Positions 1 through 43,470 of a stretch of 44,367 bases of DNA are shown one piece after another. Numbering within the stretch: position 1 is the first letter of the stretch; the number at the start of each line of letters is the position of its first letter. The translations under genes were made by a program, and so were the position numbers. Under the pieces are notes generated by a model, which saw nothing but the letters and a program-made list of their open reading frames with translations, made no database searches and had not been told where the DNA came from. The stretch lies in IMG/VR virus record IMGVR_UViG_3300029267_003851, positions 1 to 44,367 of that record, one strand, 5' to 3'. This stretch comes from a virus.

Positions 1-7391
<7,391 letters not shown>

Positions 7392-10465: not shown

Positions 10466-10720
10466 ATGGACAAACAAGCAACGAAACACATAGACAAGAA
10501 ATGCCATTTCTGTGATGAAGACAACTATGATCTCCTCGATCTACACAGAATCACTCCCGGCTCCGAAGGTGGCAAATACACACGGGACAATACCGTCACC
10601 ACTTGTAGCAATTGCCATCGAGCTACTCATGCTGGTGTGATTGTCATTGACCGGTGGTACATAAGCACCAAGGGTCGGGTTCTTCACTACTTCGTTGAGG
10701 GTGAAGAGAGATTTGATTGA
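10466..10720 (+). CDS. Small HNH/zinc-finger protein
   Basis: 84 residues with CHFC near the N-terminus, HRITPGSEGGKYTRDN, then CSNCHRATHAG. This is the C-x2-C ... H ... N ... C-x2-C-H-x3-H layout of compact HNH endonuclease domains, with essentially nothing else attached. It could be a stand-alone nicking enzyme or a DNA-binding accessory to packaging; free-standing HNH proteins often sit next to terminase genes in phages, as here. No Shine-Dalgarno is obvious. A TATAAT box at 10452-10457 lies only 8 bases before the ATG, so the mRNA may be nearly leaderless. The 3' end overlaps the convergent terminase gene by 34 bases. Confidence 0.75.
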   Translation: MDKQATKHIDKKCHFCDEDNYDLLDLHRITPGSEGGKYTRDNTVTTCSNCHRATHAGVIVIDRWYISTKGRVLHYFVEGEERFD

Positions 10721-11673
10721 GTTATTTCAATGTTGTTTTTCAAAATTTGAAATTTCCTCTCTTCTAAATCCCTGATCTTTCTTCGAATTGCTTCTTCTTC
10801 GTCCTCATATTTGAGCCTGTATGCGGCCTCAATTAGAGTCAATCTTTCTTGTTTTGAGAGTCTTTTCTTAGAGGCAATTTCCAAAAGTTGGTCAACGAGA
10901 CTTGGAAGTTCAGTTGGTTGCCAATCGCTGATGAACTTTCCTTCTATTTCTTGAAGGAATTTCTTTTCTCCCATGTTGCTTTTCATCTCTTTGATCTTTT
11001 GGGGATCTTGAAAATCGGGATGTTCTGTGTAGTGAGATTTGAAGACATGGAAAAAATTCTCTTCGTCCAATGCACTGTGGTATGTTTCTTCAAACCAGTT
11101 CCCGACACCGTTTGCAGTCGAAAGGACAAAACATTTTCCTCCGCAAGCAATTGTTGGATACATGGCTTTCCAATGTTCCAACATATTGGGAATAAATGCT
11201 GCTTCATCAATGAAGGCGTGGGTAATAGATTTCCCTCTTGCCTTCTGAAGAGTGTAAAATGAAAGTTGGCTATTGGTTCTAGGTAATTTCTTTTCATGCT
11301 GGGTATTTCTTTCCAATTTTGGCCGCATCCAGTCGGGCAAGTTGTCTAGGACCTGGGTTGCTATTTTTCCCAAGTGAATTGCTTCCCTGTCCGTTTTGGA
11401 GTAGACATTGAAAGATTGATCTAAATAGAACATACACTTCCACAATGCATAGACGACAGTCATAGTTGTAAAACCGCCTTGTCGGAATTTGACTCCAATC
11501 ACGTATGGATAATTTTGATAGGAATCCACTAATCTTTGTTGAAAAGGATAGAGTTTTAAAGGGATTATGTCATGCTTCCAATGTCTGATTTTGACATAGT
11601 TCTCAGCAAAATAAGAGAAGCTTTCACTACAAGCGTTTTCTTCATCTATACGACTTTTATATTCTTTACTCAT
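10687..11673 (-). CDS. Terminase large-subunit-like ATPase, nuclease domain not seen
   Basis: 328 residues from the ATG at 11673, which has AAAAGG upstream; a GTG 30 bases earlier is less likely. It has the adenine-binding/Walker A region KFRQGGFTT at residues 62-70, Walker B with catalytic Glu AFIDEA at 153-158, and an STANG coupling motif near 183, matching the ATPase domain of T4 gp17-like motors. The classical Walker A lysine is Phe, as in some other phage terminases with an RQxGF/I motif. After about residue 250 there is only a charged helical tail (RLKYEDEEEAIRRKIRDLEE). The RNase H-like nuclease domain, normally another ~200 residues, is absent. Either the terminase is split and the nuclease is encoded elsewhere, or this is a related motor. 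Confidence 0.8.
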   Translation of the reverse strand: MSKEYKSRIDEENACSESFSYFAENYVKIRHWKHDIIPLKLYPFQQRLVDSYQNYPYVIGVKFRQGGFTTMTVVYALWKCMFYLDQSFNVYSKTDREAIHLGKIATQVLDNLPDWMRPKLERNTQHEKKLPRTNSQLSFYTLQKARGKSITHAFIDEAAFIPNMLEHWKAMYPTIACGGKCFVLSTANGVGNWFEETYHSALDEENFFHVFKSHYTEHPDFQDPQKIKEMKSNMGEKKFLQEIEGKFISDWQPTELPSLVDQLLEIASKKRLSKQERLTLIEAAYRLKYEDEEEAIRRKIRDLEERKFQILKNNIEITQSNLSSPSTK

Positions 11674-11735
11674 GGTACGATAACCTTTTGTTAGGTGGAA
11701 CACAATAGAACCACGGTAATAATGTAGTGGCGGTG

Positions 11736-11756: not shown

Positions 11757-12122
11757 ATGAAATTCAGCACATGGTTAGAGATGAAGGGGCTACCTCAACT
11801 GGCTGCACCGGGCGATATACCCAAAAGGAAGCCCGAGGCTAAACTTTTCGATATTGATAAGTGGCTACAAACAGTTAAAAATCACCTAGTCGAAATCAAA
11901 CGAGGAGCAGACGTTATGGGTGGCGAAATCAGCGATGAAAATGTTGCTCGTTTGAACATGGTCAATACCATTTTAAGAAAAACCCAGGAAAATATTGGTA
12001 TGGCCTTACCAGAACCAGTCGAATCAGAACCAGTCGAATCAGAACCAGTCGAACCAAAGAAAGAAGAACCGGATGAATGGATTAAATTTAGACAAGATAT
12101 AGGACGCGGACTTGCACTATGA
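11757..12122 (+). CDS. Putative internal head protein with capsid-targeting-like N-terminus
   Basis: 121 residues starting MKFSTWLEMKG. The ATG at 11757 is chosen over 11754 because it is better spaced from GGAGG at 11747. The N-terminus fits the M-x-F-x-x-F/W-L pattern shared by several proteins here and by the T4 capsid-targeting sequence. The middle is helical and charged. The C-terminus has a short tandem repeat, EPVESEPVESEPVEP (15-base DNA repeat, about 12009-12052), and ends at an ATGA overlap with the next gene. No enzymatic motif is visible. A packaged internal protein or core component is inferred. Confidence 0.65.
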   Translation: MKFSTWLEMKGLPQLAAPGDIPKRKPEAKLFDIDKWLQTVKNHLVEIKRGADVMGGEISDENVARLNMVNTILRKTQENIGMALPEPVESEPVESEPVEPKKEEPDEWIKFRQDIGRGLAL

Positions 12123-12508
12123 ATTTTCGGCAATGGTTAGAACAATATACACGCGAAGAATTGGAGCGAATGCCGACCGAGAAACTAGACAAAATGGCAT
12201 ATGGCTTCACTGATGATGAAGTGGTGTATTTGAATCCCAAGCAAATCACTATTGCTTACGATACAGATTTAGCTTTTGCTAAGGAAGACATGAAACATTT
12301 TTGTCATCATAGTAGTTTGTCATGTATAGAATGGGCTGAACGAGTGGATTTGCAAGATCCTGTTGAAGTAGATCTAGAAAGAGGCAAATACATATTACGT
12401 GACGGACATCACAGATATCTCGCAGCAGAAATTCTAGAAAAACCGTTGCCCGCAATTATCACCATTAAAGACAATCCGATTGATGTTATCCTTAGGAGAC
12501 AAAAGTGA
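12119..12508 (+). CDS. ParB/sulfiredoxin-like domain protein with capsid-targeting-like N-terminus
   Basis: 129 residues. The start MNFRQWLEQY matches the shared capsid-targeting-like pattern. The C-terminal half (DPVEVDLERGKYILRDGHHRYLAA ... PAIIT) matches the ParB N-terminal/Srx fold, where the GxHR-type motif binds or hydrolyses nucleotide; here it reads DGHHRYLAA at about residues 97-105. Such single-domain ParB-like proteins in phages can be nucleases or CTPases. It overlaps the preceding stop by ATGA and the following GTG start by GTGA, so it is translationally coupled on both sides. Activity is inferred only. Confidence 0.7.
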   Translation: MNFRQWLEQYTREELERMPTEKLDKMAYGFTDDEVVYLNPKQITIAYDTDLAFAKEDMKHFCHHSSLSCIEWAERVDLQDPVEVDLERGKYILRDGHHRYLAAEILEKPLPAIITIKDNPIDVILRRQK

Positions 12509-12930
12509 ATTTCCGAGAGTTTTTGAATATAGTTGAAGGTGGAGCCGGATCAGGAACCAAGTTCACAGGTTCGGGCTTGAATGCTGGCGGTCAAGCTCAA
12601 GCCGGAAGGGGAATGACCAAACCCAGCAATCCTCAAACTAAAACCGTTCCTTTTCCTCCTCCTCCAAGTGAAATGACTCCTGGAACACCCGGAGCCCCAC
12701 CGGGTTGGGTCGCTGGCTTTTCACCTTTTGCAGCCGGTGTTGGAAATTCAAAACCTCAAGAACCACCCAAGCCAGGATGGATGGGTGCAGGTAAATCAAA
12801 AGAAGAAATCGAAGGTGGTTCTTTTGGCGGTGGTGGTCCCAAGGGAATCAAGGCAAATCGACAAGGACTGACTCCTCCATCACAACCACAGCCTGGAAAG
12901 CCTGCTGGAATGGAAAAGCCTAAGCTCTAA
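12505..12930 (+). CDS. Disordered Pro/Gly-rich protein with capsid-targeting-like N-terminus
   Basis: 141 residues starting at a GTG (12505) that overlaps the previous stop. The N-terminus MNFREFLNIVEGG carries the shared motif followed by I-V-E before GG, which fits the L/I-x-E consensus cut by the T4 prohead protease gp21. The rest is low-complexity, rich in Gly, Pro, Lys and Ser (PFPPPPS, GGGGPKG, PSQPQPGKP) and very probably unfolded. A small DNA-condensing or space-filling internal head protein is the best guess; no enzymatic features are seen. Confidence 0.65.
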   Translation: MNFREFLNIVEGGAGSGTKFTGSGLNAGGQAQAGRGMTKPSNPQTKTVPFPPPPSEMTPGTPGAPPGWVAGFSPFAAGVGNSKPQEPPKPGWMGAGKSKEEIEGGSFGGGGPKGIKANRQGLTPPSQPQPGKPAGMEKPKL

Positions 12931-15681: not shown

Positions 15682-15695
15682 CACCGAAGGTGCCT

Positions 15696-16852: not shown

Positions 16853-17087
16853 CATCGATCCTAGTATTTTACTGTCGAAAGAGTTTGAAGATGTTTCGGT
16901 AAAACTCGCTGAACTTCGCGAGAAGAAGCAGAAGAAAACCGAAGAGTTCAAAGAACTTTACGACGCCTTTACAGCCGAGGTTGCCGAGATCGACAAAGAA
17001 GCCGCCGAAGAGTGGAAGAAGTTGATGGACGGCGAAACCGAGGTTCAAACCCTTCAAGAGGAAGAAGAGGTCACCGAAGAGGAATGA
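16845..17087 (+). CDS. Small acidic coiled-coil protein
   Basis: 80 residues from the ATG at 16845, preceded by GGAGGA. It is heptad-like throughout (VSVKLAELREKKQKKTEEFKELYDAF) and ends in an acidic run (EEEEVTEEE). The start overlaps the previous stop by 8 bases, and its own stop overlaps the dnaE N-terminal gene by ATGA, so the three are translationally coupled. It could be a replisome adaptor; nothing in the sequence proves this. Confidence 0.6.
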   Translation: MSNIDPSILLSKEFEDVSVKLAELREKKQKKTEEFKELYDAFTAEVAEIDKEAAEEWKKLMDGETEVQTLQEEEEVTEEE

Positions 17088-20589: not shown

Positions 20590-21768
20590 TTAGGGTCGCA
20601 TTCCCCTCAAGCGTTTCTTAAACTTCTCCAGGGGACTTTCTTCTCTTTCTAAATCTTCTTCGTCTTCCAGATCTTCTTCATCTTCCAAGCCTTCTTCGTC
20701 TTCCAAGCCTTCTTCGTCTTCGATATCGACCTCGTCTTCATCTTCTAGGTCCATGAGTGGCACTTCATCGTCTTCCATGTCTTCATCGCCCATGTCTTCC
20801 ATGTCTTCATCGCCCATGTCTTCCATGTCTTCATCGCCCATGTCTTCCATGTCTTCATCGCCCATGTCTTCCATGTCCTCATCGCCCAATCCTTCAAGAT
20901 CCTCGTCGCCTAAATCTTCATCGTCTTCTTCATCGCTGAGAATTGGTTTGTCTTTCTTGAGATCTACACCAATGGGCGGGCCAACGGCTTCTTTAATGCT
21001 TCGAATGAGTTTTTTCAGATCACCATTTTCACGGACTTCGCGGACTAGATGTTCGAAAATACTTTGGTTGTGATGCCCCACCGCTGCGAGATATCTGGCG
21101 GTTTCAACAGGATGTGGATGAACTTCACCGGCCTCATAGATCATAATGCCTTTGATATCCTTAGGATCAACAATCTGACCACATGCTTTTTCTTCTAGCA
21201 TGTAGTTTGTGAACTCTTGTAAAGACATACCTTTAGTCTTTTCAAGGAATACTTCTGTTACTTGTGGTTGTTTTTTCATGCCATTCACCTTATATGGTTC
21301 TTCTTTTTTGGATTTCGGCCAGGACGGAATAACTTCTGTATCTTTTTCTACATCCGTCTTGGGTTCGTAGATTAACGGTTTTGCCCCTTCGTCGCCCAAG
21401 CCGGATTCTCTAGTCGTAGACCCGCCAGCAGCAGGAGCCCGGTAAGGAGCGGTGGATGCTTGAGGCTTTCTGCTGGCCTTGGGTCCATTCGGTTCAATGG
21501 ACAGAGGCCAATTTCCAGATTTGGGAGGAGCGGAAGGATCGGGACCGGGATAATCCTGGCTCATAGAGGGTTTCTCTACTAACTTTCCGCTTCCGTCCAA
21601 ATACTCTTTAACTTGCGGTTGCTTGTCTTTGGTTTTGTTTTTCTTATGAGGGTCTTCCTTAGCCTTCGACTTCACAATGTCAATTTGGTCACCGGTAAGG
21701 TCTACCTTGGGTTTCTCTTCTGTCTTGCCCTTGCTGTTGAGATATTCTTGGAAAGATTGATATTTCAT
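20590..21768 (-). CDS. Acidic capsid-targeted protein, scaffold/core candidate
   Basis: 392 residues. It begins [15 protein letters not shown], the shared capsid-targeting-like motif, and has a second similar stretch at about residue 180 ([13 protein letters not shown]). A Pro/Lys-rich disordered region is followed by a small folded domain ([24 protein letters not shown]). After that come about 100 very acidic residues with five GDEDMEDM-type repeats, and a basic end ([10 protein letters not shown]). Acidic, helical, capsid-targeted proteins in T4 form the prohead core, so scaffold or internal protein is the leading idea. The start overlaps the PspC gene's stop (ATGA). It lies against the direction of the surrounding replication genes. 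Confidence 0.7.
20773..20893 (-). repeat. 24-base tandem repeat encoding GDEDMEDM
   Basis: About five tandem copies of a 24-base unit (plus-strand CATCGCCCATGTCTTCCATG plus TCTT) with very few differences, each encoding eight acidic residues. The near-identity suggests recent expansion by slippage or recombination. Confidence 0.85.
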
Positions 21769-23862: not shown

Positions 23863-24040
23863 GCCCGATGAAGACGGGGCACAAGCTATAGGTTGGTTGC
23901 TCTTTGGTAGTTTGGCGATCATTTGTATTTGCATCGCACAATTAACATCGGAAATCGTGGGATGGCTGGTTTTCGGATCGGTTCTTTTTTTCTTTGCGAT
24001 TTTTTGTGTTGTAGCGTATTTTATGTCTGGCGGGAAATGA
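23852..24040 (+). CDS. Small membrane protein with two transmembrane helices
   Basis: 62 residues. A short acidic N-terminus (MMSEPDEDG) is followed by two hydrophobic segments (IGWLLFGSLAIICICIAQL and GWLVFGSVLFFFAIFCVVAYF). It overlaps the preceding AAA+ gene by 11 bases and the following dnaE piece by ATGA, so all three are coupled. It could tether the ATPase or replisome to the membrane; that is inference from position only. Confidence 0.65.
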   Translation: MMSEPDEDGAQAIGWLLFGSLAIICICIAQLTSEIVGWLVFGSVLFFFAIFCVVAYFMSGGK

Positions 24041-31863: not shown

Positions 31864-32124
31864 ATGAACGAGAAAAAGAAAATAATGAGTCTATCCGTAG
31901 AACCCGAAATGCATAGCCTCTTGAAGAGGTCCAGCAAAAAGATGGGTTGGTCTACGTCCCAATTGGTCCGAGAATTGGTAAACAAATATTTGGATCTGGT
32001 CGTACAGGATGAGGAAATCATTCCCGTTATTCTAAGGATTCCTGCCGAGCTAAAAGAAAACCCGGAATCCTTACGGAAGTGGTTGGAAATCAAACGAGAA
32101 GCAATCCTTAAGGCTCTTACCTAA
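31864..32124 (+). CDS. Ribbon-helix-helix (CopG-like) DNA-binding protein
   Basis: 86 residues from the ATG at 31864 behind GAGGAA. IMSLSVEPEMHSLLKRSSKK then MGWSTSQLVRELVNKYLDL is the beta-strand plus two-helix pattern of MetJ/Arc-type repressors. The C-terminus (IPVILRIPAELKENPESLRKW) is an additional helical domain. A transcriptional regulator is inferred, perhaps of this bS21/deformylase operon. Its stop overlaps the deformylase ATG by one base (TAATG). Confidence 0.7.
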   Translation: MNEKKKIMSLSVEPEMHSLLKRSSKKMGWSTSQLVRELVNKYLDLVVQDEEIIPVILRIPAELKENPESLRKWLEIKREAILKALT

Positions 32125-32639
32125 TGGAAATTGTCCCCGTAAAAGACATCCCCAAATACCTTGAAGACATGCCATTGGACAAACCAATGGAAATCTTCAA
32201 GGTATTTCAAAAAATGGAAAAGCTCTGTGTGGCCGAGAACGGAGTCGGTTTGTCAGCGGTACAAGTCGGGATTCCCTGGCCTATGTTTCTCACGCGAGTA
32301 AATGACAAGACCTCCTGCTATGTGGACTGCAAATACACCCCTATTTTGAGGGACAATATTGGAAGCCCTGTCAATAAAAAAATCAATTCCATCGAGGGCT
32401 GTCTTTCATTAAGGCAGAACGGCAAGCTTCTCAGGTTCAAAGTAAAACGGCATCCAAAGGTTCGCATCAAAGGGCAACAACTCTTTTGGCATGACAGGCC
32501 CCGACTAGAACCCGTTGACCTGACTTTAGACGGGGTGGCTGCCGTCGTCTTTCAGCACGAAATCGACCATCAAAACGGAATCCTTATCTCCGATATCGGA
32601 AAACAAATCCATATTTCTGACATCGTTAAAATGGATTAG
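32124..32639 (+). CDS. def: Peptide deformylase
   Basis: 171 residues with all three motifs: I, GVGLSAVQVG; II, EGCLSL (metal-binding Cys); III, QHEIDHQNG (two metal His and catalytic Glu). The enzyme removes the formyl group from nascent N-terminal Met. Phage deformylases are known from several marine and huge phages. The N-terminus is standard, and a loop after motif II (RHPKVRIKGQQLFWHDRP) is somewhat enlarged. Convergent with the spanin-like gene. Confidence 0.93.
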   Translation: MEIVPVKDIPKYLEDMPLDKPMEIFKVFQKMEKLCVAENGVGLSAVQVGIPWPMFLTRVNDKTSCYVDCKYTPILRDNIGSPVNKKINSIEGCLSLRQNGKLLRFKVKRHPKVRIKGQQLFWHDRPRLEPVDLTLDGVAAVVFQHEIDHQNGILISDIGKQIHISDIVKMD

Positions 32640-33112
32640 TTCCTCTTGAGGAAGCTATAGACTTCGCCTTCTACTCGGCTGTTCAAAGCCGCAACAAAAA
32701 CGTTCTCACGCAAGTTTTCGTCGTTCGATTGGTTGATCTGCTGGGCTAGAATATCAGCAGCCTCTTCATTTTTATCCGCCTTGTTCTTGAAATAGGCGAT
32801 TATCATCAACAAAATCACGGCGAAAGCAAAGGCCGCGATCAAAGGCCCATCTCCCTGTAAAATCTGTACGCCTGAGTTGTTTTTGTTGATGATTCCTTGC
32901 TGAAGATTCTCGATTTTATCCGAAAGAATTTGTTGTTCGTTACGCAACTTACCTAATTCCAACAGAAATCCATTTTGGTTGTTTTGTAGGTCATTTATCT
33001 CTCCTTCCTGGTTTTCTATTCGTTGCTGTAAATCGGGACTGAATGGATCGATTCTAGCACAACCGGTCAATAGGGGGATCGATAGAACTAGAAGCAAAAG
33101 CAGTTTTCTCAT
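32636..33112 (-). CDS. Lipoprotein with coiled coil and membrane segment; unimolecular spanin candidate
   Basis: 158 residues from the ATG at 33112, preceded by GAGGAG. The signal peptide with lipobox (LLLLLVLSIPLLTGC, Cys near 18) is followed by a coiled coil (QQRIENQEGEINDLQNNQ, IENLQQGIINKN). A transmembrane helix (GPLIAAFAFAVILLMIIAYF, about 87-106) follows, then a charged C-terminus of ~50 residues. A lipid anchor in the outer membrane plus an inner-membrane helix joined by a periplasmic coiled coil is the layout of unimolecular spanins that fuse the membranes at lysis. No endolysin or holin is seen nearby, so this rests on architecture alone. Confidence 0.6.
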   Translation of the reverse strand: MRKLLLLLVLSIPLLTGCARIDPFSPDLQQRIENQEGEINDLQNNQNGFLLELGKLRNEQQILSDKIENLQQGIINKNNSGVQILQGDGPLIAAFAFAVILLMIIAYFKNKADKNEEAADILAQQINQSNDENLRENVFVAALNSRVEGEVYSFLKRN

Positions 33113-33135
33113 GGTTTCTCCTCTTTTATTCTGCC

Positions 33136-33164
33136 TTGACATAATTAGAAGGCTAGAGTACATT
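33136..33164 (+). promoter_or_regulatory. Sigma70-like promoter
   Basis: TTGACA (33136-33141), exact 17-base spacer, TACATT (33159-33164), followed by CTAG. It lies 48 bases before the ATG at 33212. Host RNA polymerase is expected to read it, which would suit early or middle genes. Confidence 0.6.
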
Positions 33165-33211
33165 CTAGTTAGACCAAAGGCCTGTGTTATACCTAGAAGA
33201 GGGACTCTACG

Positions 33212-33682
33212 ATGATTATCAAAGAATTAGATCCCAGCGTTTTCCAAAACGAGGAAGAGTCATTTGAGGATTATTCTGAAGAATTTGTTACTTATGCGGT
33301 CGATATTTATCAGGATTTCGACAAACTAGCTGAGAATTTCATCTACGCATTCTTCTGTGATAAATCGATGTTTTGTGGGGGCCCAATACCTAAAAAACTG
33401 CTTTTTTCCCGACAATACATCACTTTAGTGCTGAATCTGAAGATTGCGAAGGGCATTCAAAGGGCCCATGAAATGATAGAGATCCACAACAAAACCGCCG
33501 AAAATCCGATTACAGATATTCAGGCGATGGAACTGGTCCGAGACACCCTAGATTTATTCGCCCATTCGGGAGTGCCAAAACAATTGGCGGGCGGCATCCT
33601 TCTAATGTACCTAGAACTTGTAGAAGGCATCACAGCTTCAGAAGAACTTTTTGAACTAGACAAGGACGAGAATGACGGATAA
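33212..33682 (+). CDS. Hypothetical protein
   Basis: 156 residues behind GAAGAGGG and a good sigma70-like promoter. All-helical in appearance (YITLVLNLKIAKGIQRAHEM, AMELVRDTLDLFAHSGV) with an acidic start and end. Family not recognised. It is first in a three-gene overlapping cluster. Confidence 0.6.
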   Translation: MIIKELDPSVFQNEEESFEDYSEEFVTYAVDIYQDFDKLAENFIYAFFCDKSMFCGGPIPKKLLFSRQYITLVLNLKIAKGIQRAHEMIEIHNKTAENPITDIQAMELVRDTLDLFAHSGVPKQLAGGILLMYLELVEGITASEELFELDKDENDG

Positions 33683-34043
33683 TGAGTTCAATCGGGATTT
33701 GTACTTAATGGGAGGTAGTTTTTTAGTGGACCCTCTGCCCAAGGAAAAAGACTACTTATACCATTATTTTAAAACCCACGTTCAACAGATCTTTGTGAAA
33801 TACTACTATGACATAGGTTCCACAGAACTCTTTTTTCAACATACTGGAGTTTATGCAAACGATCATTGGCTCAAAAAGCTCAGAAATCGGTTTGGCGTGA
33901 TAGAAGAAGCTTACAAACGGGCAAAAGAAGAGGGAGATTTCGAAACCATCGCTATGATAAAAGCGGGCCAATACCCAGTACCCGTTACTAATCCAGAACG
34001 CAGAGCCAAGGGATTCAAATGGAAGAAAAAAGATGCGATGTAG
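33672..34043 (+). CDS. Hypothetical protein
   Basis: 123 residues, starting 11 bases before the previous stop. Rich in Tyr and Phe (LYHYFKTHVQQIFVKYYYDI), with a helical middle and a basic end (RRAKGFKWKKK). No family recognised. Confidence 0.55.
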   Translation: MTDNEFNRDLYLMGGSFLVDPLPKEKDYLYHYFKTHVQQIFVKYYYDIGSTELFFQHTGVYANDHWLKKLRNRFGVIEEAYKRAKEEGDFETIAMIKAGQYPVPVTNPERRAKGFKWKKKDAM

Positions 34044-34438
34044 ATCTATGCAGAACAAATGGCGAGATGTTTGCCCGTCGTATTGATCTCATAGACTTAA
34101 TTCAAGAATGTTGTCCCCCAAACAGTGCGACGACTTGGTTTTTAAAAGCACTAACCCGACCCGGAGAAATAGAGGATGAAAAGGCCAATATTACTTTCGT
34201 TCATGGCGATACCGAAGCAATTGTTCGGTGTATGAAAACCGAATTTGGAACATACTACCATCTCAACGATTTCATAGAATTAGCCCGAGATTTAAGAGGC
34301 TCTCTTCACGAAAGAAGTGAAAAAGCTCCTGAAAACCTGAAGGAAAAAATGTCCAATCAAGTGGGCGAAACATTTGATCTTATAGATGAACTGATTGGGG
34401 AACTGGCAGCGGGTCTCCAAGACTATTTTGGCGACTGA
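34019..34438 (+). CDS. Hypothetical protein
   Basis: 139 residues, overlapping the previous gene by 25 bases. It starts with a short Cys-containing stretch (RCDVDLCRTNGE) followed by helices (DLIDLIQECC, LNDFIELARDLRGSL, FDLIDELIGELAAGL). Function unknown. The 3' end overlaps the convergent capsid-targeted gene by 16 bases. Confidence 0.55.
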   Translation: MEEKRCDVDLCRTNGEMFARRIDLIDLIQECCPPNSATTWFLKALTRPGEIEDEKANITFVHGDTEAIVRCMKTEFGTYYHLNDFIELARDLRGSLHERSEKAPENLKEKMSNQVGETFDLIDELIGELAAGLQDYFGD

Positions 34439-34905
34439 CTCTCTGGTATTTCTTCAAGTTCTTTTTTTGATTTTTCTTCTTTGGATTCTTCCGGCTTTTC
34501 AGATTTCTTGGGTTCTTTGGACTCCTTTTCCTTTTCCTTTTCTTTTTCTTTTTCCTTTGGTGGTTCTTCCTCGGGTTTCTTGGGTTCTCGTTTCTTCTTC
34601 TCTATTGCATCCTCTAGTGCCTTGAGGTCGCCTTTGAGAGACTCTATTCGATCCATCAGATTGGCCGCCTGGGGATTTTTGGATAAATGTTTTTCGCTCT
34701 CATCCATCTTTTTCTTTTTCTTCTTCCGCTTCTTTTTGAGCTTTTTGACGATCTCCTCAACCTCAAATGGATGGGCGGTAGATCTGCTGTGAATTGATGG
34801 TTCCGCAATCAGCGGCTTTAGCCCAAGAGCAGCGTCCCGTCGCCATCGAGTATGTGGACTAGATTCCCTAGCCAACAGCCAATCTTTGAAAGTCATAAAT
34901 GCCAT
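34423..34905 (-). CDS. Lys/Glu-rich internal-protein candidate with capsid-targeting-like N-terminus
   Basis: 160 residues from the ATG at 34905, with CCAGGA upstream; an internal ATG at 34896 would give MTFKDWLLARES. The N-terminus fits the capsid-targeting-like pattern. A short conserved-looking segment follows (SPHTRWRRDAALGLKPLIAE, SIHSRSTAHPFEVEEIVKKL). After that come runs of Lys and a Lys/Glu/Pro-rich tail (EKEKEKEKEKESKEPKKSEK), a likely charged DNA-binding or space-filling region. A packaged head protein is inferred. Confidence 0.65.
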   Translation of the reverse strand: MAFMTFKDWLLARESSPHTRWRRDAALGLKPLIAEPSIHSRSTAHPFEVEEIVKKLKKKRKKKKKKMDESEKHLSKNPQAANLMDRIESLKGDLKALEDAIEKKKREPKKPEEEPPKEKEKEKEKEKESKEPKKSEKPEESKEEKSKKELEEIPESQSPK

Positions 34906-34978
34906 TGCTAAATCCTGGTATTCTGTTATAATTATACAATCTGTTATACTATCTAGTGGTTTTTATTCCATTTTGCCA

Positions 34979-34999
34979 TGTGGAGGCTTAGTATCCACA
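34979..34999 (+). promoter_or_regulatory. Hairpin leader motif (GGAGGCTTAGTA), copy 2
   Basis: TGTGGA and TCCACA pair perfectly around the loop GGCTTAGTA, 19 bases before the dCMP deaminase ATG. TACTATCTAG, a possible -10, lies about 25 bases upstream, as in copy 1. Confidence 0.6.
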
Positions 35000-35018
35000 G
35001 CACAACTAGGAGCATCTA

Positions 35019-35552
35019 ATGAGACCTCCAAGAGAAGTACCTTCGCGAGATGATTTCTATATGGGAATGGCTTTGTGGTATATGGCCAAATCCAAAGATC
35101 CCGATACACAGAATGGGGCTTTGGTTATCAGTGCTGATAATGAACCTCTTGGTTGGGGCTACAATGGGCCGCCTAGACAAATAGATGATGATGATATAGA
35201 TTGGTGCCGCGAGGGCGATATTACCAAATATGATTTGGTCGATCATGCAGAAGACAACGCAATCGAGTATTCTTGTTCCAATCTTGAAGGAGCAACGATC
35301 TATGTGAGTGGTAGACCGTGTCCCCCTTGCATGAGAAAAATCGTTCGGGCGGGAATTAAAAGGGTAGTTTGGTTTCCCCAAAAAGTCGATCCCAATTCTA
35401 CCCTGGCAGATGAAAAAAAAATCAAAAAGACCGAATATATTGCAAGGAAAGGCCGGGTGAAACTTGAATTATTCTCGGGAGACCTGTCCTGGATGGGCAG
35501 ACATTGGGAGTTCCTCAAGCAAATCGGAGTCCTTGAGTGGAAAAAAAGTTAA
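35019..35552 (+). CDS. dCMP deaminase-like (cytidine/deoxycytidylate deaminase)
   Basis: 177 residues. The zinc-binding and catalytic motifs are DHAEDNAIE (HAE near 77-79) and SGRPCPPCMRKIV (PCPPC near 100-104), with the dCMP-deaminase start RDDFYMGMALWYMAKSKDPD. It converts dCMP to dUMP for dTTP synthesis. A C-terminal ~45 residues (KLELFSGDLSWMGRHWEFL) extends the usual fold. The gene has its own promoter-like region and the hairpin leader. Confidence 0.88.
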   Translation: MRPPREVPSRDDFYMGMALWYMAKSKDPDTQNGALVISADNEPLGWGYNGPPRQIDDDDIDWCREGDITKYDLVDHAEDNAIEYSCSNLEGATIYVSGRPCPPCMRKIVRAGIKRVVWFPQKVDPNSTLADEKKIKKTEYIARKGRVKLELFSGDLSWMGRHWEFLKQIGVLEWKKS

Positions 35553-35557
35553 GATAA

Positions 35558-35564
35558 CTAAATA
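35558..35564 (+). promoter_or_regulatory. CTAAATA box, candidate late promoter
   Basis: CTAAATA ends only 5 bases before the ATG of the baseplate-like gene at 35570, with no Shine-Dalgarno in the gap. If it is a promoter, the mRNA would be leaderless or nearly so. Confidence 0.4.
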
Positions 35565-35569
35565 CTTGT

Positions 35570-36388
35570 ATGGTAACAGGAGCATCAGTAGGGGTTAATT
35601 GCCCTCCGGTTTCAACCCAATGCCCAGACGCATATGGCTGCGTCGGAGCCGGGCCGAATGGCACAACAATATGCCCCGATTTCACAATCAAACGACACGA
35701 TACGAAGCCACCCTTCAAGGTTGCAATTTCCGATTGCGATGGTCCATTAGATCTGACTGAAAAGCATTTGATCGCTGAAGTCAATATGTGGGCCAAAGGA
35801 AAACTCAAAACCGCTATTACCAAAGCAGACACCTACTTTGGGTTGGCAGATAATATCGGATTCAATCAAGTTATGGTGGGTGATATCATCGTAACGGATC
35901 GCGTCCGATTACCCGAACATATGCTAGTTACCGCTTTCGATGAGACTAACTATCTTATCCAGGTTCAGCGAGGTTACAACGGCACATTCATCGACAATTG
36001 GTCTAAAGGCACATCATTGCGGATATTCCGCATCATGAATGGTCCCGCCGAGCTAGAAACGGTTTTGGACGATATCCGACAGGTCGATGGCACAATTGCC
36101 GAAGATCAGTTAATTGAGAGTCTTTTGGTCTACCAATGGAATCAAAATAGCACTTGCGTCCCAGGTTGCTTTTGGTTAGAATTTAAGCTGCTCAAAATGA
36201 AGGAATCTGCCGTATCGATGTTATCCAATGGAATCAGTATTACCCCAAGTTTCACTCCAAGCACATTCAGTGCCACGCATTTTGGTTGCATTTTGGGAGA
36301 TGGTGTTGAATGGGTGAGACGTTTCCCGGCTGATGGGGAGGGTTTCTTTATCCATATTGTTGATTCTCCAACAGCAGAGTTGCCTTAG
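35570..36388 (+). CDS. Baseplate/tail-type structural protein
   Basis: 272 residues. The segment IKRHDTKPPFKVAISDCDGPLDLTEKHLIA resembles the BppU N-terminal domain of phage baseplate proteins (KRxDTxPP ... DxDGxPLDLT). Further on, LIQVQRGYNGTFIDNWSKGTSLRIFR is a short beta module common in phage structural proteins. The C-terminal part is beta-rich. Likely a virion protein. The start at 35570 has no ribosome site, but no other start is in frame nearby. Confidence 0.65.
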   Translation: MVTGASVGVNCPPVSTQCPDAYGCVGAGPNGTTICPDFTIKRHDTKPPFKVAISDCDGPLDLTEKHLIAEVNMWAKGKLKTAITKADTYFGLADNIGFNQVMVGDIIVTDRVRLPEHMLVTAFDETNYLIQVQRGYNGTFIDNWSKGTSLRIFRIMNGPAELETVLDDIRQVDGTIAEDQLIESLLVYQWNQNSTCVPGCFWLEFKLLKMKESAVSMLSNGISITPSFTPSTFSATHFGCILGDGVEWVRRFPADGEGFFIHIVDSPTAELP

Positions 36389-36391
36389 TTT

Positions 36392-36931
36392 ATGGCTAAA
36401 AAAACAGCGACCGACAAAAAGTTCTACAGGGTAAACGAAAAGATTCGCTTCAGTCCTGTAATGGTGATTGACCAACATGGAGAAAATCTGGGAGCAATAC
36501 CAGTTGATAAGGCCAAACAGTTGGCCAGAACCGCTAAACTGGATCTTGTAGAAGTCGCTCCTCATGCCCGCCCGCCCGTATGCAGGATCATGGATTTCGG
36601 CAAATTTCGATATGAACAAAGTCTAAAAGAGAAGAAACAGAGATCAAAAACCAAAAGCACACAGACAAAAGAAATCCGATTGAGTCCCGGAATAGCAGAC
36701 CATGATATTGAAACCAAAACCAAAGCGGCCAGAAAATTTCTAGAATCGGGATTCAAAGTGCAGTTGAAACTACAGTATTCAAAGCGAGAAAATGCCCACA
36801 AGGATCTTGGCTTCGTAGTTATCAAGAGAATCCTAGAAAATTTGAATGAAGTAGCAGCAGCCAAAGAACCTCCGAAACTCAATGGTCGCTTTCTGATGTG
36901 TTTGTTAGAATTAAAGAAAGATCGAAGATGA
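36392..36931 (+). CDS. infC: Translation initiation factor IF-3
   Basis: 179 residues, the full bacterial length. N-domain: YRVNEKIRFSPVMVIDQHGE, KAKQLARTAKLDLVEVAP. The linker is Lys-rich after PPVCRIMDFGKFRYEQ. C-domain: STQTKEIRLSPGIADHDIETK, AARKFLESGFKVQLKLQYSKREN. IF-3 checks start codons, keeps the subunits apart and disfavours some leaderless or non-canonical starts. Phage copies are rare but known in huge phages. It sits 3 bases after the structural gene and is followed by a terminator. Confidence 0.92.
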   Translation: MAKKTATDKKFYRVNEKIRFSPVMVIDQHGENLGAIPVDKAKQLARTAKLDLVEVAPHARPPVCRIMDFGKFRYEQSLKEKKQRSKTKSTQTKEIRLSPGIADHDIETKTKAARKFLESGFKVQLKLQYSKRENAHKDLGFVVIKRILENLNEVAAAKEPPKLNGRFLMCLLELKKDRR

Positions 36932-36988
36932 TAGAATTAAACCATTCCCCTTGACAGAATTGTCAAAGAATCAAACGGTCGCCCCGGA

Positions 36989-37028
36989 TAAAAAACCCTT
37001 TTCTCATTATGGGTGAAAAGGGTTTTTT
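36989..37028 (+). terminator. Rho-independent terminator after IF-3
   Basis: AAAAAACCCTTTTC pairs with GAAAAGGGTTTTTT around a 9-base loop and ends in six T. Because it is flanked by A and T runs, it can act in both directions. Confidence 0.85.
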
Positions 37029-37078
37029 GCGAGAATTGTCGAAACCTTACTGTTTTAATTGAAGAACGTGAGGTTTCG

Positions 37079-37414
37079 ATGCATTGGATTTTTGCACATT
37101 TAATAGGTGATTATGTAATTCAAAATGATTGGATGGCTCAAGGAAAAAAGAAATCTTCTTTTGTCTGTACTGTCCATGTTTTGACTTATATCATTCCATT
37201 CTTATTTTGTAGTTTAGCTTGGTGGCAGTTAATAGCAATTGCAATACAACATTTCATTCAAGATAGAACGAATATAGTTTTGAATTGGATGAATTTTTAT
37301 GGACAAGGAGCATTTGCCAAAGCCCCTCTTGCACCCTGGTCCATAATTGTAGTCGATAACATCTGGCACATTCTTTGGATAGCGTTTATAGTTTGGCTGG
37401 TGGCATGTGAATGA
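37079..37414 (+). CDS. DUF3307-type membrane protein
   Basis: 111 residues from the ATG at 37079 (GTGAGG upstream). The start HWIFAHLIGDYVIQNDWMAQGKK is the hallmark of DUF3307 membrane proteins. Membrane helices follow at about 33-50 (TVHVLTYIIPFLFCSLAWW) and at the C-terminus (IWHILWIAFIVWLVACE). Function unknown. It is more AT-rich than its neighbours. Confidence 0.75.
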   Translation: MHWIFAHLIGDYVIQNDWMAQGKKKSSFVCTVHVLTYIIPFLFCSLAWWQLIAIAIQHFIQDRTNIVLNWMNFYGQGAFAKAPLAPWSIIVVDNIWHILWIAFIVWLVACE

Positions 37415-37427
37415 TGATAATCCCAGA

Positions 37428-37448
37428 GTGGGAGGCTTCGTATACAAG
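37428..37448 (+). promoter_or_regulatory. GGAGGCTTCGTA leader motif, copy 3
   Basis: GTGGGAGGCTTCGTATACAAG shares the 12-base core with copies 1 and 2, but its flanks do not form the same hairpin. It lies 27 bases before the GroES-like ATG. Confidence 0.5.
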
Positions 37449-37475
37449 TAAAAACTGAGAAACAAGGAGTAATAG

Positions 37476-37808
37476 ATGAACATCATAGCAACAGATGGAA
37501 CCGAATTGAATAAAGTTCCCGATATTGTATCGGTGAAGCCTGTGGGGCATCAAATACTGTTTGAGGAACTGACTGCCCAAGAGATTCAGAGTTCTACACT
37601 ACACATCCCTGAGAGTGCTAATAGCGGACCCCCGCAGGGATACATCCTTGAGATCGGGCCAAAAGTTGACCCGGATTGGGGATTTGAAATTGGTGATCGA
37701 GTGATCCTATCGGGTAAATATGTACCCGTCCCGAACAACGAGAACCATCGTAATCGTGGTGTCGTTGAAGCTCATATGATTAAGGCTGTTTTAGTGGAAA
37801 ATGACTGA
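37476..37808 (+). CDS. GroES-like co-chaperonin
   Basis: 110 residues. It follows the cpn10 plan: VSVKPVGHQILFEELTAQEI (roof/N strand), a mobile-loop region with SSTLHIPESAN, then GYILEIGPKVDPDWGFEIGDRVIL (VxxxGxGxxxxG-type strand) and VVEAHMIKAVL. Like T4 gp31, a phage co-chaperonin can pair with host GroEL to fold capsid protein. It is preceded by CAAGGAG and overlaps dnaJ by 8 bases. Confidence 0.82.
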   Translation: MNIIATDGTELNKVPDIVSVKPVGHQILFEELTAQEIQSSTLHIPESANSGPPQGYILEIGPKVDPDWGFEIGDRVILSGKYVPVPNNENHRNRGVVEAHMIKAVLVEND

Positions 37809-38796
37809 GAATTTCTACGAAGTATTGGGTGTTAAGAAAGATGCAACTCAAAAGGATATTTGCAAGGCTTATCGAGAGATGGCCTTGAAATATCACCCGG
37901 ATCGCAATCCTGGCAACAAGGAGGCTGCCGATAAATTCAAGAAGGCATCCCAAGCTTTTGAAATACTCAATGATCCTAAAAAGAAAAGACAATACGACGG
38001 CTTCTCCAACAATCAATTTACGGTAAACAGCGATGGGATTTTCGACAGCATTTTCTCACAGTTCTTTGGCGATGATTTTGGTCGAGGGACGATTAGGGGT
38101 ACTAGAGTTCATGTGCGGATATCCCTGAAAGAAGCTTTTGCTGGTTGTCAAAAGGTCATTCAACTTCAACAACAGGAGCCATGTGAAGAATGCCATACAA
38201 GCGGCAGTACCAAATGGGAATCTTGTAAAGAATGCAAGGGTCGTGGGAGGTCTCAGTTACGACAAGAAGGATTCGCAATCGAAGTCACATGTATGATCTG
38301 CAACGGGATCGGCAAGGTGCCATTGGAGCGTTGTAAGAAATGTTCCGGCCAGGGCTATATTAGAGGCGAGGTTAACAAAATCCCCATAGATATTCCCGCA
38401 GGAATCGAAAACAGATCACAAATCAGGGTTTCGGGTCAGGGAATTGGAGGAAATGATCTCTATGTTGTTGTTGATGTGATCCCGGATGGAGTTTTTCAAA
38501 GACAGGGAATGAATCTTTTTGTAGAGTTTCCGGTAAGCTATACAACACTGATCTTAGGAAAGCAAATCGAACTTACTGGAATAGACGATCAGAAGATCGC
38601 CATAAAAATACGTCCCCGAAGTAATATTGGGACAAGATTGCGGGTGAAGGGGCATGGAATGCCGATACCTCACCAGCCAGGGATTCGTGGCGATTTGTTT
38701 GTCGTATTGTCGCTGGTCATGCCGTCCGAGATCAGCGAAAAAGAGGAAGAGTTACTACAGAAACTAGCCAAACTAGAAGAGGAAAAGTCATGTTAG
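37801..38796 (+). CDS. dnaJ: DnaJ (Hsp40) co-chaperone
   Basis: 331 residues. J domain with the essential HPD (KYHPDRNPGN) at about 34-43; a short G/F-like region (DSIFSQFFGDDFGRG); four CxxCxG zinc repeats, of which the last three read CKECKGRG, CMICNGIG and CKKCSGQG while the first is CEECHTSG; and the C-terminal substrate domains (GNDLYVVVDVIPDGVFQRQG, KGHGMPIPHQPGIRGDLFV). Somewhat shorter than E. coli DnaJ (376) but complete. It recruits and stimulates DnaK. Phage DnaJ homologues with this full layout are unusual. Confidence 0.92.
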   Translation: MTENFYEVLGVKKDATQKDICKAYREMALKYHPDRNPGNKEAADKFKKASQAFEILNDPKKKRQYDGFSNNQFTVNSDGIFDSIFSQFFGDDFGRGTIRGTRVHVRISLKEAFAGCQKVIQLQQQEPCEECHTSGSTKWESCKECKGRGRSQLRQEGFAIEVTCMICNGIGKVPLERCKKCSGQGYIRGEVNKIPIDIPAGIENRSQIRVSGQGIGGNDLYVVVDVIPDGVFQRQGMNLFVEFPVSYTTLILGKQIELTGIDDQKIAIKIRPRSNIGTRLRVKGHGMPIPHQPGIRGDLFVVLSLVMPSEISEKEEELLQKLAKLEEEKSC

Positions 38797-39098
38797 AAGA
38801 ATTGAAAACACTGTGGCAGAATCCATGGGTTCGAGTAGTTGCGATTTTGTTTTGTGTCTTCATTTTTTTGTTTGTCAACAACAAAATGATGGTGGAAAAG
38901 ACAGCAGACAGGGTCATTGAAAAGCTCAAAAAGGATTATGTGCCTGGGCCGTATGCCCCAGGATTTGATCCCGACAAAGTCAATCCCGATTTATGGAAGA
39001 GTGAGGAATCGGCTTTACGGAACGCACAGTGGCGGGATGAACCAAAAGACAATTGGAAAGAAGACTGGGAAGCACAAAGGCATAACCATTCTCAGTAA
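38790..39098 (+). CDS. Single-pass membrane protein
   Basis: 102 residues. An N-terminal helix is followed by one membrane span (WVRVVAILFCVFIFLFVNN, about 13-31), then a charged soluble tail (VEKTADRVIEKLKKDYVPGP ... EESALRNAQWRDEPKDNW). It overlaps dnaJ by 7 bases. Family not recognised. Confidence 0.6.
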   Translation: MLEELKTLWQNPWVRVVAILFCVFIFLFVNNKMMVEKTADRVIEKLKKDYVPGPYAPGFDPDKVNPDLWKSEESALRNAQWRDEPKDNWKEDWEAQRHNHSQ

Positions 39099-39472
39099 CA
39101 GCGGATATTTTGAATCTGAGAATACGCATCTGAGTGATCTTCGGGAAATCTTTGGAAGACAACGCTCATAGTCCTTCCTACCTTTGGTTCTTCGCCTGGG
39201 ATTCTTCTAAACTCATCCCATGTAAAATACATCTTTGTCCCGTCTGAAAGAAGGATCAAGATGGGATTCCTTTTCATTTCGACAAAGGTGATTTTCGCAC
39301 ATCGGGTAATCGTAGGGACCAGATCGGTGCCGGGCAGACTCAAACCTCGGCCTTCTAGTTGATCTGGGGAGTCACTACCAGTGTAGGATGTGGGCAAATA
39401 TGCCCCCGTTGCCATATCGTTGTGGGTGCCGATAGTATTGTCTTCTTGTAAGATAAATTCCCGGAAATTCAT
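39092..39472 (-). CDS. Capsid-targeting-like small protein, phage-conserved type
   Basis: 126 residues. The start MNFREFILQEDN carries the motif, and L-Q-E in it fits the T4 gp21 cut rule (L/I-x-E). The rest is a small beta-rich domain (AKITFVEMKRNPILILLSDGTKMYF, RTMSVVFQRFPEDHS). It is preceded by GTAAATA only 4 bases before the ATG. It overlaps the plus-strand gene end by 7 bases. Internal or head-associated protein inferred. Confidence 0.65.
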   Translation of the reverse strand: MNFREFILQEDNTIGTHNDMATGAYLPTSYTGSDSPDQLEGRGLSLPGTDLVPTITRCAKITFVEMKRNPILILLSDGTKMYFTWDEFRRIPGEEPKVGRTMSVVFQRFPEDHSDAYSQIQNIRCY

Positions 39473-41745: not shown

Positions 41746-41919
41746 ATGCTGACTTTCAAAGAATTTCTAGATGGACTGGGCGATACCGAAAATATAGCTC
41801 AGTACATCAAACGTGTCACCAATCGTCTTATGCTTCTTGAGCCTAAAGAAATCGAAGAGGCAAAGCCTCTGCTTCTCAATTTGAAAGATGCTCTGGCAGA
41901 TAAGCTCTCAGGAACTTAG
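41746..41919 (+). CDS. 57-residue capsid-targeting-like protein
   Basis: A very short gene, MLTFKEFLDGLGDTENIAQY ... KDALADKLSGT. The first eight residues match the shared capsid-targeting-like motif and the rest is a single amphipathic helical stretch. It is convergent with the Dps-like gene, overlapping it by 4 bases. A small internal head peptide is inferred. Confidence 0.6.
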   Translation: MLTFKEFLDGLGDTENIAQYIKRVTNRLMLLEPKEIEEAKPLLLNLKDALADKLSGT

Positions 41920-42407
41920 GACTTGCTGACTTGTTGTAGCAAGTAGAGATTTGTTTCGTGGGCATTCGCGGTTGCCATCAAGAAATCGTCCAATCCCAGC
42001 GACATATCGTCAGCCTCTTTCAGCCTCTCGTAAGCCGCCTTGAAGATGTTTTGCATGTCTTTTTCAGTTTGAATCGCCCGGTCTACCGGATCTTTGATAT
42101 CCGACCATTTTTGAAGCCAGTTGTTAGTCTTTTCGGAGATGACCGTATTTTCTACTGCGTCTTCACCAAAATAACCAACGATTTTCTCGGCCAAAGTGTC
42201 AATTTCCTCGGTTAGATCGGTATAGAGTCGGTCAAAGAGAAGGTGGTTGCCATAGTAGTTGGGACCCTTGGCCCGCCAATGACTACCCCAGTAGTTCCAG
42301 TATTGGCCCTGTAACAGTGCGAGAACCTCCTGTAGGACTTCTACAGTGGAACCTGATTTGTCGATTCCCGATCCTTGATCTTTGATAAATTTTAGAAACG
42401 TCTTCAT
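41916..42407 (-). CDS. Dps-like ferritin with capsid-targeting-like N-terminus
   Basis: 163 residues from the ATG at 42407. It starts MKTFLKFIKDQGSG, close to the T4 targeting sequence MKTYQEFIAE. The body is a four-helix Dps fold. The ferroxidase ligands appear as H43, H55, D59, D70 and E74 (SHWRAKGPNYYGNHLLFDRL ... EIDTLAEKI), with exactly the 12-4-11-4 spacing of bacterial Dps. Dps proteins oxidise and store iron and protect DNA. The targeting-like start suggests packaging into the head. The IsrB element lies immediately upstream, and no ribosome site is seen at normal spacing from the ATG; a GTG at 42431 is an alternative start. Confidence 0.8.
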   Translation of the reverse strand: MKTFLKFIKDQGSGIDKSGSTVEVLQEVLALLQGQYWNYWGSHWRAKGPNYYGNHLLFDRLYTDLTEEIDTLAEKIVGYFGEDAVENTVISEKTNNWLQKWSDIKDPVDRAIQTEKDMQNIFKAAYERLKEADDMSLGLDDFLMATANAHETNLYLLQQVSKS

Positions 42408-42441
42408 AGTAATGCGGCAGGAAACCTCCACGGCGTAGCCG

Positions 42442-43470
42442 TCAGGGGCGAAGCCCCTGACCCTTGTGGTGGAGGAGGAATGCTGCTCCTTTTAAATAGG
42501 TTCTAAATTTGCAATCTTTTGGGTTTACATTTTGCGACAACCTTACGCCAGTTGCCACCGAATGTAAACTAATTTTGTTTTTACTTGTACCACCAACATA
42601 GGCTTCTCCGTATTTTGGGTGTTTGACCAAACTCCCTCTTTTTAGTCCCATACTACTTGTTCCACCATATTGTCGTCTTTTTCCGCCTTTTGCAAATTGA
42701 AGAACGTGTAATTGACGACGATGCAGCCTAATTGGACGGAATAACAGCAATTCTTCGTTATCCGGTTTCGTATGGCCTCCTACCATATCATTTGCCAAGA
42801 CCCAGCTATCAACACAATGAGCAGAGAATTTATTTTCCAGTTTGTTGCCGGTTTTTTTAAGTCCTAATTGATCTCGAAGCTCTTTTGTTTCCCAACCTTG
42901 TCTGATGGCTAAGTTATCGATTTGGTCGTAAAACCACTGTTTCCCTACTTCTAGTGGGGAAAAAGATTTATCCCATCTTCTTTTCCCTGTCGTTCTTGCC
43001 TTGATGTCTTCAACCACGACATGACTTACTGGAAACAATTGCTTCAACCAATTCAGTATCCTAATTTTCCATTGCCATCTAGCTTTGGTGCTAGGTGGAA
43101 TGCGATTTTTCTTAAGACTTGCTCGATTCCATCTGGGTTTACGACATGGAGTATTGCGAAATCTGCGGCTTCGCCGCATCTCTCGTCTAGTTGTTACTGC
43201 ATCTTTTACCCACGTCACCGCATCGGCTTGAATGTTAAGAAATGTGTGGGATTCTGACTTTACACTAAATCCCTCTTTTTTACTGCCTGGATCAATTCCT
43301 ACAGCTATGTCCTGCTTGTTCTCCTTTGCTTTTTGGTTCAAACGGACGCAGAAAATTCCATTCTTCCAAAAAGGGGTTGCCTTTTTGGAGTTTATCCAAC
43401 GTCTTGCTCTCAACAAAGTTGTCGGCATGAGTGGTTTATTTTCTAAATTTACTACCGGTACAAAAAACAT
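42442..43470 (-). CDS. isrB: IsrB-like RNA-guided nickase (RuvC, no HNH)
   Basis: 342 residues. N-terminal PLMP domain (VVNLENKPLMPTTLLRARRW); RuvC-I AVGIDPGSKKEGF; an Arg-rich bridge helix (RREMRRSRRFRNTPCRKPRW); RuvC-II HVVVEDIKA; RuvC-III HCVDSWVLA; then a basic C-terminal RNA/DNA-binding region. Only about 75 residues lie between RuvC-II and RuvC-III, with no HNH motif, so it fits IsrB (about 350 residues) rather than IscB. The catalytic Asp, Glu and Asp are in place. IsrB proteins use an omega-RNA to nick one DNA strand and are relatives of the ancestors of Cas9. Confidence 0.88.
   Translation of the reverse strand: MFFVPVVNLENKPLMPTTLLRARRWINSKKATPFWKNGIFCVRLNQKAKENKQDIAVGIDPGSKKEGFSVKSESHTFLNIQADAVTWVKDAVTTRREMRRSRRFRNTPCRKPRWNRASLKKNRIPPSTKARWQWKIRILNWLKQLFPVSHVVVEDIKARTTGKRRWDKSFSPLEVGKQWFYDQIDNLAIRQGWETKELRDQLGLKKTGNKLENKFSAHCVDSWVLANDMVGGHTKPDNEELLLFRPIRLHRRQLHVLQFAKGGKRRQYGGTSSMGLKRGSLVKHPKYGEAYVGGTSKNKISLHSVATGVRLSQNVNPKDCKFRTYLKGAAFLLHHKGQGLRP

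Follow-up and report, generated by a model that had tools for sequence, protein, structure and literature searches.

The dps locus

The window, that is, the whole stretch of DNA analysed here, comprises 44,367 nt (IMG/VR record IMGVR_UViG_3300029267_003851, positions 1 to 44,367) and is a fragment of a phage genome. Its minus strand encodes a small protein that sequence searches (Pfam, PHROGs, PDB) and structural comparison assign to the Dps family, with the following layout:

41916..42407, minus strand: Dps-family miniferritin with an N-terminal capsid-targeting-like tag, 163 aa
42378..42407, minus strand: candidate capsid-targeting sequence MKTFLKFIKD (residues 1-10), a short amphipathic helix apart from the bundle, from the comparison with T4 and the structural model
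41919..42359, minus strand: Dps four-helix bundle with ferroxidase ligands H43, H55, D59, D70 and E74, from the alignment, AlphaFold, Foldseek and VIA

The gene had been recognized in a preliminary description of this DNA, and its reading frame is confirmed: the minus-strand translation runs without a stop for 163 aa and begins MKTFLKFIKD. The product matches the Pfam Ferritin family above the Pfam cut-off (E 2e-8), as well as phrog_3636 (E 3e-16) and phrog_858, 'starvation-inducible' (E 4e-6), and the best matches in a PDB sequence search are Dps proteins. The start codon is not certain from the sequence, given an alternative in-frame GTG 8 codons upstream of the ATG, at 42431; neither start is preceded by a good Shine-Dalgarno sequence, and a GGAGG lies 17 nt before the ATG.

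The neighboring minus-strand gene (42442-43470) encodes an RRXRR protein of 342 aa (Pfam E 7e-35; no HNH domain matched in Pfam) that looks IsrB-like, and a strong hairpin (GTCAGGGGC..GCCCCTGAC) is located near 42440-42470, between this gene and the dps start. It appears as if an IS200/IS605-type element ends just upstream of dps, and such a transposon-like element may have disturbed the native leader of the gene. No T4-type late promoter (TATAAATA) was found in the window, and an Rfam search at the dps locus returned nothing.

A Dps fold with all five ferroxidase ligands

The monomer was modeled with AlphaFold (AF2) from an alignment of the window Dps with 52 viral relatives, at a pLDDT of 92 and a pTM of 0.85. 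The model consists of four long helices (residues 17-45, 51-80, 107-131, and 137-162) and a short BC helix (87-101) that is typical of Dps. The top Foldseek matches are all Dps proteins, and in a VIA comparison the model aligns with Dps 2c41 with a Z score of 18.1 and an rmsd of 2.2 over 145 residues, the alignment beginning at residue 14. The Dps fold of the protein is thus firmly supported by the modeling, in agreement with the preliminary description, which had named structure prediction as a check on its assignment. Residues 1-16 lie outside the bundle and are modeled as a low-confidence helix (2-9, pLDDT about 59) followed by a linker; a separate N-terminal helix with a linker is the appearance that would be expected of a tag.

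The five ligands listed in the preliminary description, H43, H55, D59, D70, and E74, are all present, with the 12-4-11-4 spacing that it gave. Among the 53 aligned sequences, H43, H55, D70, and E74 are invariant, along with Y62, G48, Y155, and Q159, whereas position 59 is D in only 8 of the 53, the most frequent other residues being E (19), Q (9), and G (9). The full five-ligand set is therefore a property of this protein rather than of the whole clade, which, as far as the alignment indicates, tolerates change of the fifth ligand that the window protein keeps. Four residues of helices C and D, E115, D141, H150, and E151, are specific to the clade, each being retained by 48-50 of the 53 sequences. 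By eye, D140 and D141 appear to occupy the acidic positions of the Dps iron-entry pore.

Members of the Dps family with known structures (2c41, 8ff9, 2chp, 1dps) share with the window protein the bundle, the BC helix, and the five identically spaced ligands, at about 20% sequence identity and a Z score of 18. A dodecameric cage that would oxidize iron with H2O2 is predicted here too. The window protein differs from these in its targeting-like N-terminal tag, and its clade differs in the four specific residues and in being almost restricted to viruses in our searches. The Dps body is acidic (pI 4.8), which argues against strong DNA condensation by this domain alone, and the tag is basic (pI 8.3).

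A candidate capsid-targeting sequence

In phage T4, the first ten residues of internal protein IPIII suffice for targeting to the head; within this capsid-targeting sequence (CTS), positions 4 and 7 matter in targeting and positions 8 and 10 in processing, and a CTS with Asp at position 10 still directs targeting but is not cleaved (PMC9026906). The T4 proteins begin MKTYQEFIAEA (IPII and IPIII) and MKTFKEFTST (IPI), and the same kind of start, MKTFKEFIKED, is found in T4 gp61.1. The window tag is identical to gp61.1 (MKTFKEFIKE) at 7 of 10 positions and to IPII/IPIII and IPI at 5 of 10; in a control set of 1,543 N-termini taken from other phages, the highest score is 5. Its key residues are F4, F7, I8, and D10, so that the T4 rule of aromatic residues at positions 4 and 7 holds. 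The window tag reads I8-K9-D10 and lacks an (L/I)xE processing site with its last residue at position 10; with Asp there in place of Glu, the tag is probably retained uncleaved. On the T4 analogy, D10 lowers the claim of cleavage but not that of targeting.

The T4 gene 61.1 (L136:18966-19130) is annotated as hypothetical. Judging from its CTS-like start, its product could be a T4 internal protein that has escaped notice.

The same type of tag recurs on other genes of the window. A strict tag pattern, drawn up after some of these N-termini had been seen but applied identically to the control genes, is found in 6 of 60 window genes (Dps and five others) compared to 4 of 1,097 genes of control phages (3/664 and 1/433 separately; Fisher P 3e-6, or 3e-5 with Dps itself excluded). 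These five genes, two others that match only a broader pattern, and the terminase gene are the following:

41746..41919, plus strand: convergent ORF of 57 aa, start MLTFKEFLDG, same tag type
39092..39472, minus strand: protein, start MNFREFILQE, same tag type
11757..12122, plus strand: protein, start MKFSTWLEMK, same tag type
12119..12508, plus strand: protein, start MNFRQWLEQY, same tag type; weak ParB-like match
12505..12930, plus strand: protein, start MNFREFLNIVEGG, same tag type
20590..21768, minus strand: protein with a looser tag match, broader pattern only
34423..34905, minus strand: protein, start M(AFM)TFKDWLLARE, looser match, broader pattern only
10687..11703, minus strand: large subunit of a T4-type terminase (338 aa; phrog_2 E 2.5e-29), seemingly just the ATPase part

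Thus, one tag is found on several unrelated proteins of a single phage, as is characteristic of a CTS. The window phage shares with T4 the terminase type and the presence of the tag on several differing proteins, and the window Dps shares with T4 IPI, IPII, and IPIII the MKT[FY]xxF start and the aromatic residues at positions 4 and 7. There are two differences, namely D10, which predicts the lack of cleavage, and the cargo, a ferritin-fold enzyme in the window as opposed to small basic proteins in T4. The capsid-targeting reading offered in the preliminary description accordingly gains from the similarity to the T4 CTS, from the repetition of the tag on window proteins, and from the T4-type terminase, and loses from the absence of the exact tag in homologues (see below). 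From such sequence comparisons, we consider the proposed targeting role of the tag to be well supported computationally.

Lineage of the phage

The nearest phage by terminase is LR756511 (595 kb), with 41% identity to the window terminase. The lineage of the window phage appears to be barely sampled, given that a TerL search for close relatives gave none and a DnaE search reached only about 30% identity. No genes for the capsid, portal, or a T4-type protease were recognized among the part of the ORFs searched in the 44-kb window. LR756511 encodes a T4-type prohead protease (S77), and the genes for this protease and the major head protein are closely followed by two tagged genes, with starts MDFKEWYF and MEFREWF. 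No Dps was detectable in LR756511 with the window Dps as the query.

Relatives of the window Dps

An alignment-based scan of 2.9 million viral contigs yielded 81 relatives of the window Dps, whereas 84,980 bacterial and archaeal species, scanned with a 12-row alignment as the query, yielded one, in a MAG contig, both scans relying on short conserved peptides and not being exhaustive. This sole relative from the cellular set carries the C-terminal tail of the phage Dps fusions, and the clade looks almost wholly viral from these searches. None of the Dps homologues found bears the tag MKTFLKFIKD, so that the check suggested in the preliminary description, homologues of this fusion in other phages, came out negative. 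Starts resembling MEEIFRQWIG (L168-L187) fit the tag pattern but belong to helix A and were for that reason left out of the tag count.

In a T4-type lineage (L160-L184), the Dps proteins have a different start, MKLTxxQLRxIIKEE (also given as MKLTxxQLKxIIxEE), and on the same contigs a start of the form MK[LI]TxxQLRxIIKEE is also found on neighboring unrelated genes. A start of this type is carried by a 194-aa Ala/Gly-rich protein encoded beside an S77 prohead protease, between the portal and the major head protein, which in T4 is the location of the prohead core genes. Furthermore, the IxE within this start fits the T4 protease rule. By its sequence and distribution, MKLTxxQLRxIIKEE is a candidate second class of capsid-targeting tag. 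Loci noted with MK[LI]TxxQLRxIIKEE starts are L160-L184, L196:7826-8410, and L170:3432-3845.

Elsewhere among large phages, one end of a protein of 280 to 1,040 aa is formed by the Dps domain. The partners include strongly basic Lys/Arg-rich modules (pI 9.4-11.5 for the fused part) and, by eye, a zincin-like HExxH module; in individual fusions, the Dps domain is joined to an InPase polyvalent-protein domain (L015:2-1693; PF18823, E 2e-40) and to an S-adenosylmethionine lyase, an enzyme of the counter-restriction type (L002:5950-7644; Pfam PF23780, E 7e-9). Polyvalent proteins (Iyer et al. 2017, PMC5512222) resemble the relatives in which a Dps domain is part of long multi-domain proteins with InPase or zincin-like modules. 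The window Dps differs in being a single-domain protein; the main text on polyvalent proteins names no Dps or ferritin domain (PMC5512222).

The motif [KR]x0-2AS occurs within 25 residues of the joint in 24 of 40 Dps fusions. The tighter form [KR]x0-1AS is enriched in the Dps-fusion phages (154 occurrences compared to 71 +/- 6 in shuffled sequences, and 135 compared to 85 +/- 8), with no enrichment in T4-type phages. We suspect that K/RxAS at the fusion joints may be a processing signal. An S78 protease was found in none of 34 records of phages with Dps relatives; S77 was found in 2 of these 34 and in 5 of 18 other records, and neither S77 nor S78 was found in the Dps-fusion phages tested. In the groups L022-L057 and L002-L034, the proteins show an enrichment of [KR]xAS that reaches about two-fold, and LIRLASTLPxG N-termini recur on several small proteins. 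Finally, three BFVD entries named 'Prohead protease' (A0A6J7XDU5, A0A6J7WIS1, and A0A6J7WPK9, from uncultured phage) match the Dps model structurally and, as a lead only, may be Dps-protease fusions.

Phage Dps and the virion

Dps genes are known from Lactobacillus phages (PMC6669764) and from Campylobacter and gut Gratiaviridae phages (PMC2853527, PMC8008677). These resemble the window gene in being phage-encoded but differ in that, in the parts of these reports available to us, no targeting tag is described and the role proposed is in the infected cell (PMC6669764, PMC8008677). For two podophages, mass spectrometry has placed a Dps-family protein in phage particles: in Proteus phage Privateer (QIN94861), it was detected in CsCl-purified virions (PMC7881722), and in the Kuravirus SU10 (CDS67), in PEG-concentrated particles, a preparation that also contained non-structural proteins (PMC4281155). 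The parts of these reports available to us describe no targeting tag for either protein. Dps cages may co-purify with virions, such that packaging is not proven by the Privateer detection. The statement in the preliminary description that no capsid-targeted Dps is known was too strong, considering the virion-associated Dps of Privateer (PMC7881722), although within the literature available to us a tagged Dps was not found described.

A Dps probably packed into the phage head

We consider it probable that the window encodes a Dps miniferritin of a phage clade, fused to a T4-type capsid-targeting sequence, packed into the head, and protecting the DNA there. The computational support consists of the Dps fold, the ligands, the similarity and repetition of the tag, and the T4-type terminase; the dodecamer, iron oxidation, packaging, and the benefit are what we infer. 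During head assembly, the tag would recruit Dps into the prohead core, as with the T4 internal proteins, being probably displayed many times per cage and, owing to D10, retained on the packaged protein. Cargo size should be no bar to head entry because T4 heads take in even beta-galactosidase fusions (PMC9026906). In the filled head, the ferroxidase sites would oxidize Fe(II) with H2O2 and so keep Fenton chemistry off the packed DNA. A possible second role is that subunits exit alongside the DNA to act within the first minutes of infection. A Dps dodecamer exceeds the roughly 3 nm portal in width, so this could happen only with unfolded or disassembled subunits; given that the intact dodecamer cannot pass, we favor protection within the particle over delivery. 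Counting in favor of packaging are the S77 protease and tagged genes of LR756511, the MKLTxxQLRxIIKEE Dps lineage as an independent parallel, and the Privateer precedent; counting against it are the lack of a tagged homologue, of head genes in the fragment, of Glu10, and of TATAAATA, and the uncertain start.

An ordinary intracellular phage Dps, which would bind free iron and peroxide during infection and never be packaged, its N-terminus being a mere amphipathic extension, is a less plausible reading that still deserves some weight. Such a role has been proposed for gut-phage Dps by Benler et al. (PMC8008677) and for Lactobacillus phages (PMC6669764), and it would suit L017 and L080, T4-type relatives that have an S77 protease yet an untagged Dps. 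It leaves aside, however, an N-terminus that is 7/10 identical to that of a T4 protein and recurs on unrelated window proteins, as well as the second Dps lineage, whose different tag is common to a protein encoded beside a prohead protease. The recurrence of this start on non-Dps proteins of the window also weighs against the notion, which we find very doubtful, that the N-terminus is a DNA-binding tail, whose K2, K6, K9, and K17 would bind DNA so as to condense it, whether of phage or host, in the cell. Lysines in the mobile N-terminal tail of E. coli Dps do bind DNA, and the window tag is basic on an acidic body and mobile in the model; but it is also helical, with one hydrophobic face, and matches the T4 targeting sequences.

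The remaining alternative agrees with packaging and differs in what the cargo does: Dps would be a DNA shield injected with the genome that blocks nucleases in the manner of polyvalent proteins, serving anti-restriction or host takeover. Relatives in which Dps is fused to InPase (found also in DarB-like antirestriction families), S-adenosylmethionine lyase, and strongly basic modules point in this direction, as does T4 IPI, an injected restriction inhibitor whose tag is of the same kind (PMC9026906, PMC3012670). We regard this function as unlikely for the window protein, which consists of one acidic domain and lacks a basic module. It keeps all five ferroxidase ligands, which points to iron chemistry, and its folded cage is too wide for the portal.

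Beyond the packaged Dps proposed for the window, there is a fair, if more tentative, possibility that the phage-specific Dps clade is routinely virion cargo, taken up by several unrelated routes (the CTS-like tag, the MKLTxxQLRxIIKEE tag, and long basic or polyvalent-like fusions with K/RxAS joints) to serve as antioxidant nanocages beside the DNA in the head. Phage Dps has so far been explained as an aid to the infected cell. If Dps is instead built for packaging, some phages carry a defense against iron and peroxide within the particle, which, if true, matters for how virions survive in the environment and for the earliest moments of infection. The tags would also provide a handle on other head cargo, such that tagged proteins of large T4-type phages could be listed as candidate head contents.

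Other features of the window

A small HNH-like ORF (10466-10720, plus strand) adjoins the 338-aa terminase, which is apparently without a nuclease domain, possibly a split gene. By eye, DNA polymerase III alpha is apparently split as well, between two plus-strand ORFs 5.5 kb apart, with PHP and the start of the polymerase domain in one (17012-18448) and the remainder in the other (23923-26631). Between the two are AAA ATPases and a phage tmRNA (22036-22391, plus strand) with a full-length Rfam match of 133 bits and the tag peptide AEKATLPLAA. A cluster of host-like genes (32124-38796, plus strand) includes peptide deformylase (PHROGs) and, by eye, IF-3 (36392), GroES (37476), and DnaJ (37801). 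The ORF at 15690-16394 resembles ClpP and head maturation proteases (PHROGs), and a collagen-like protein with GXY repeats, at least 2,461 aa long (3-7385, minus strand), continues past the end of the window.
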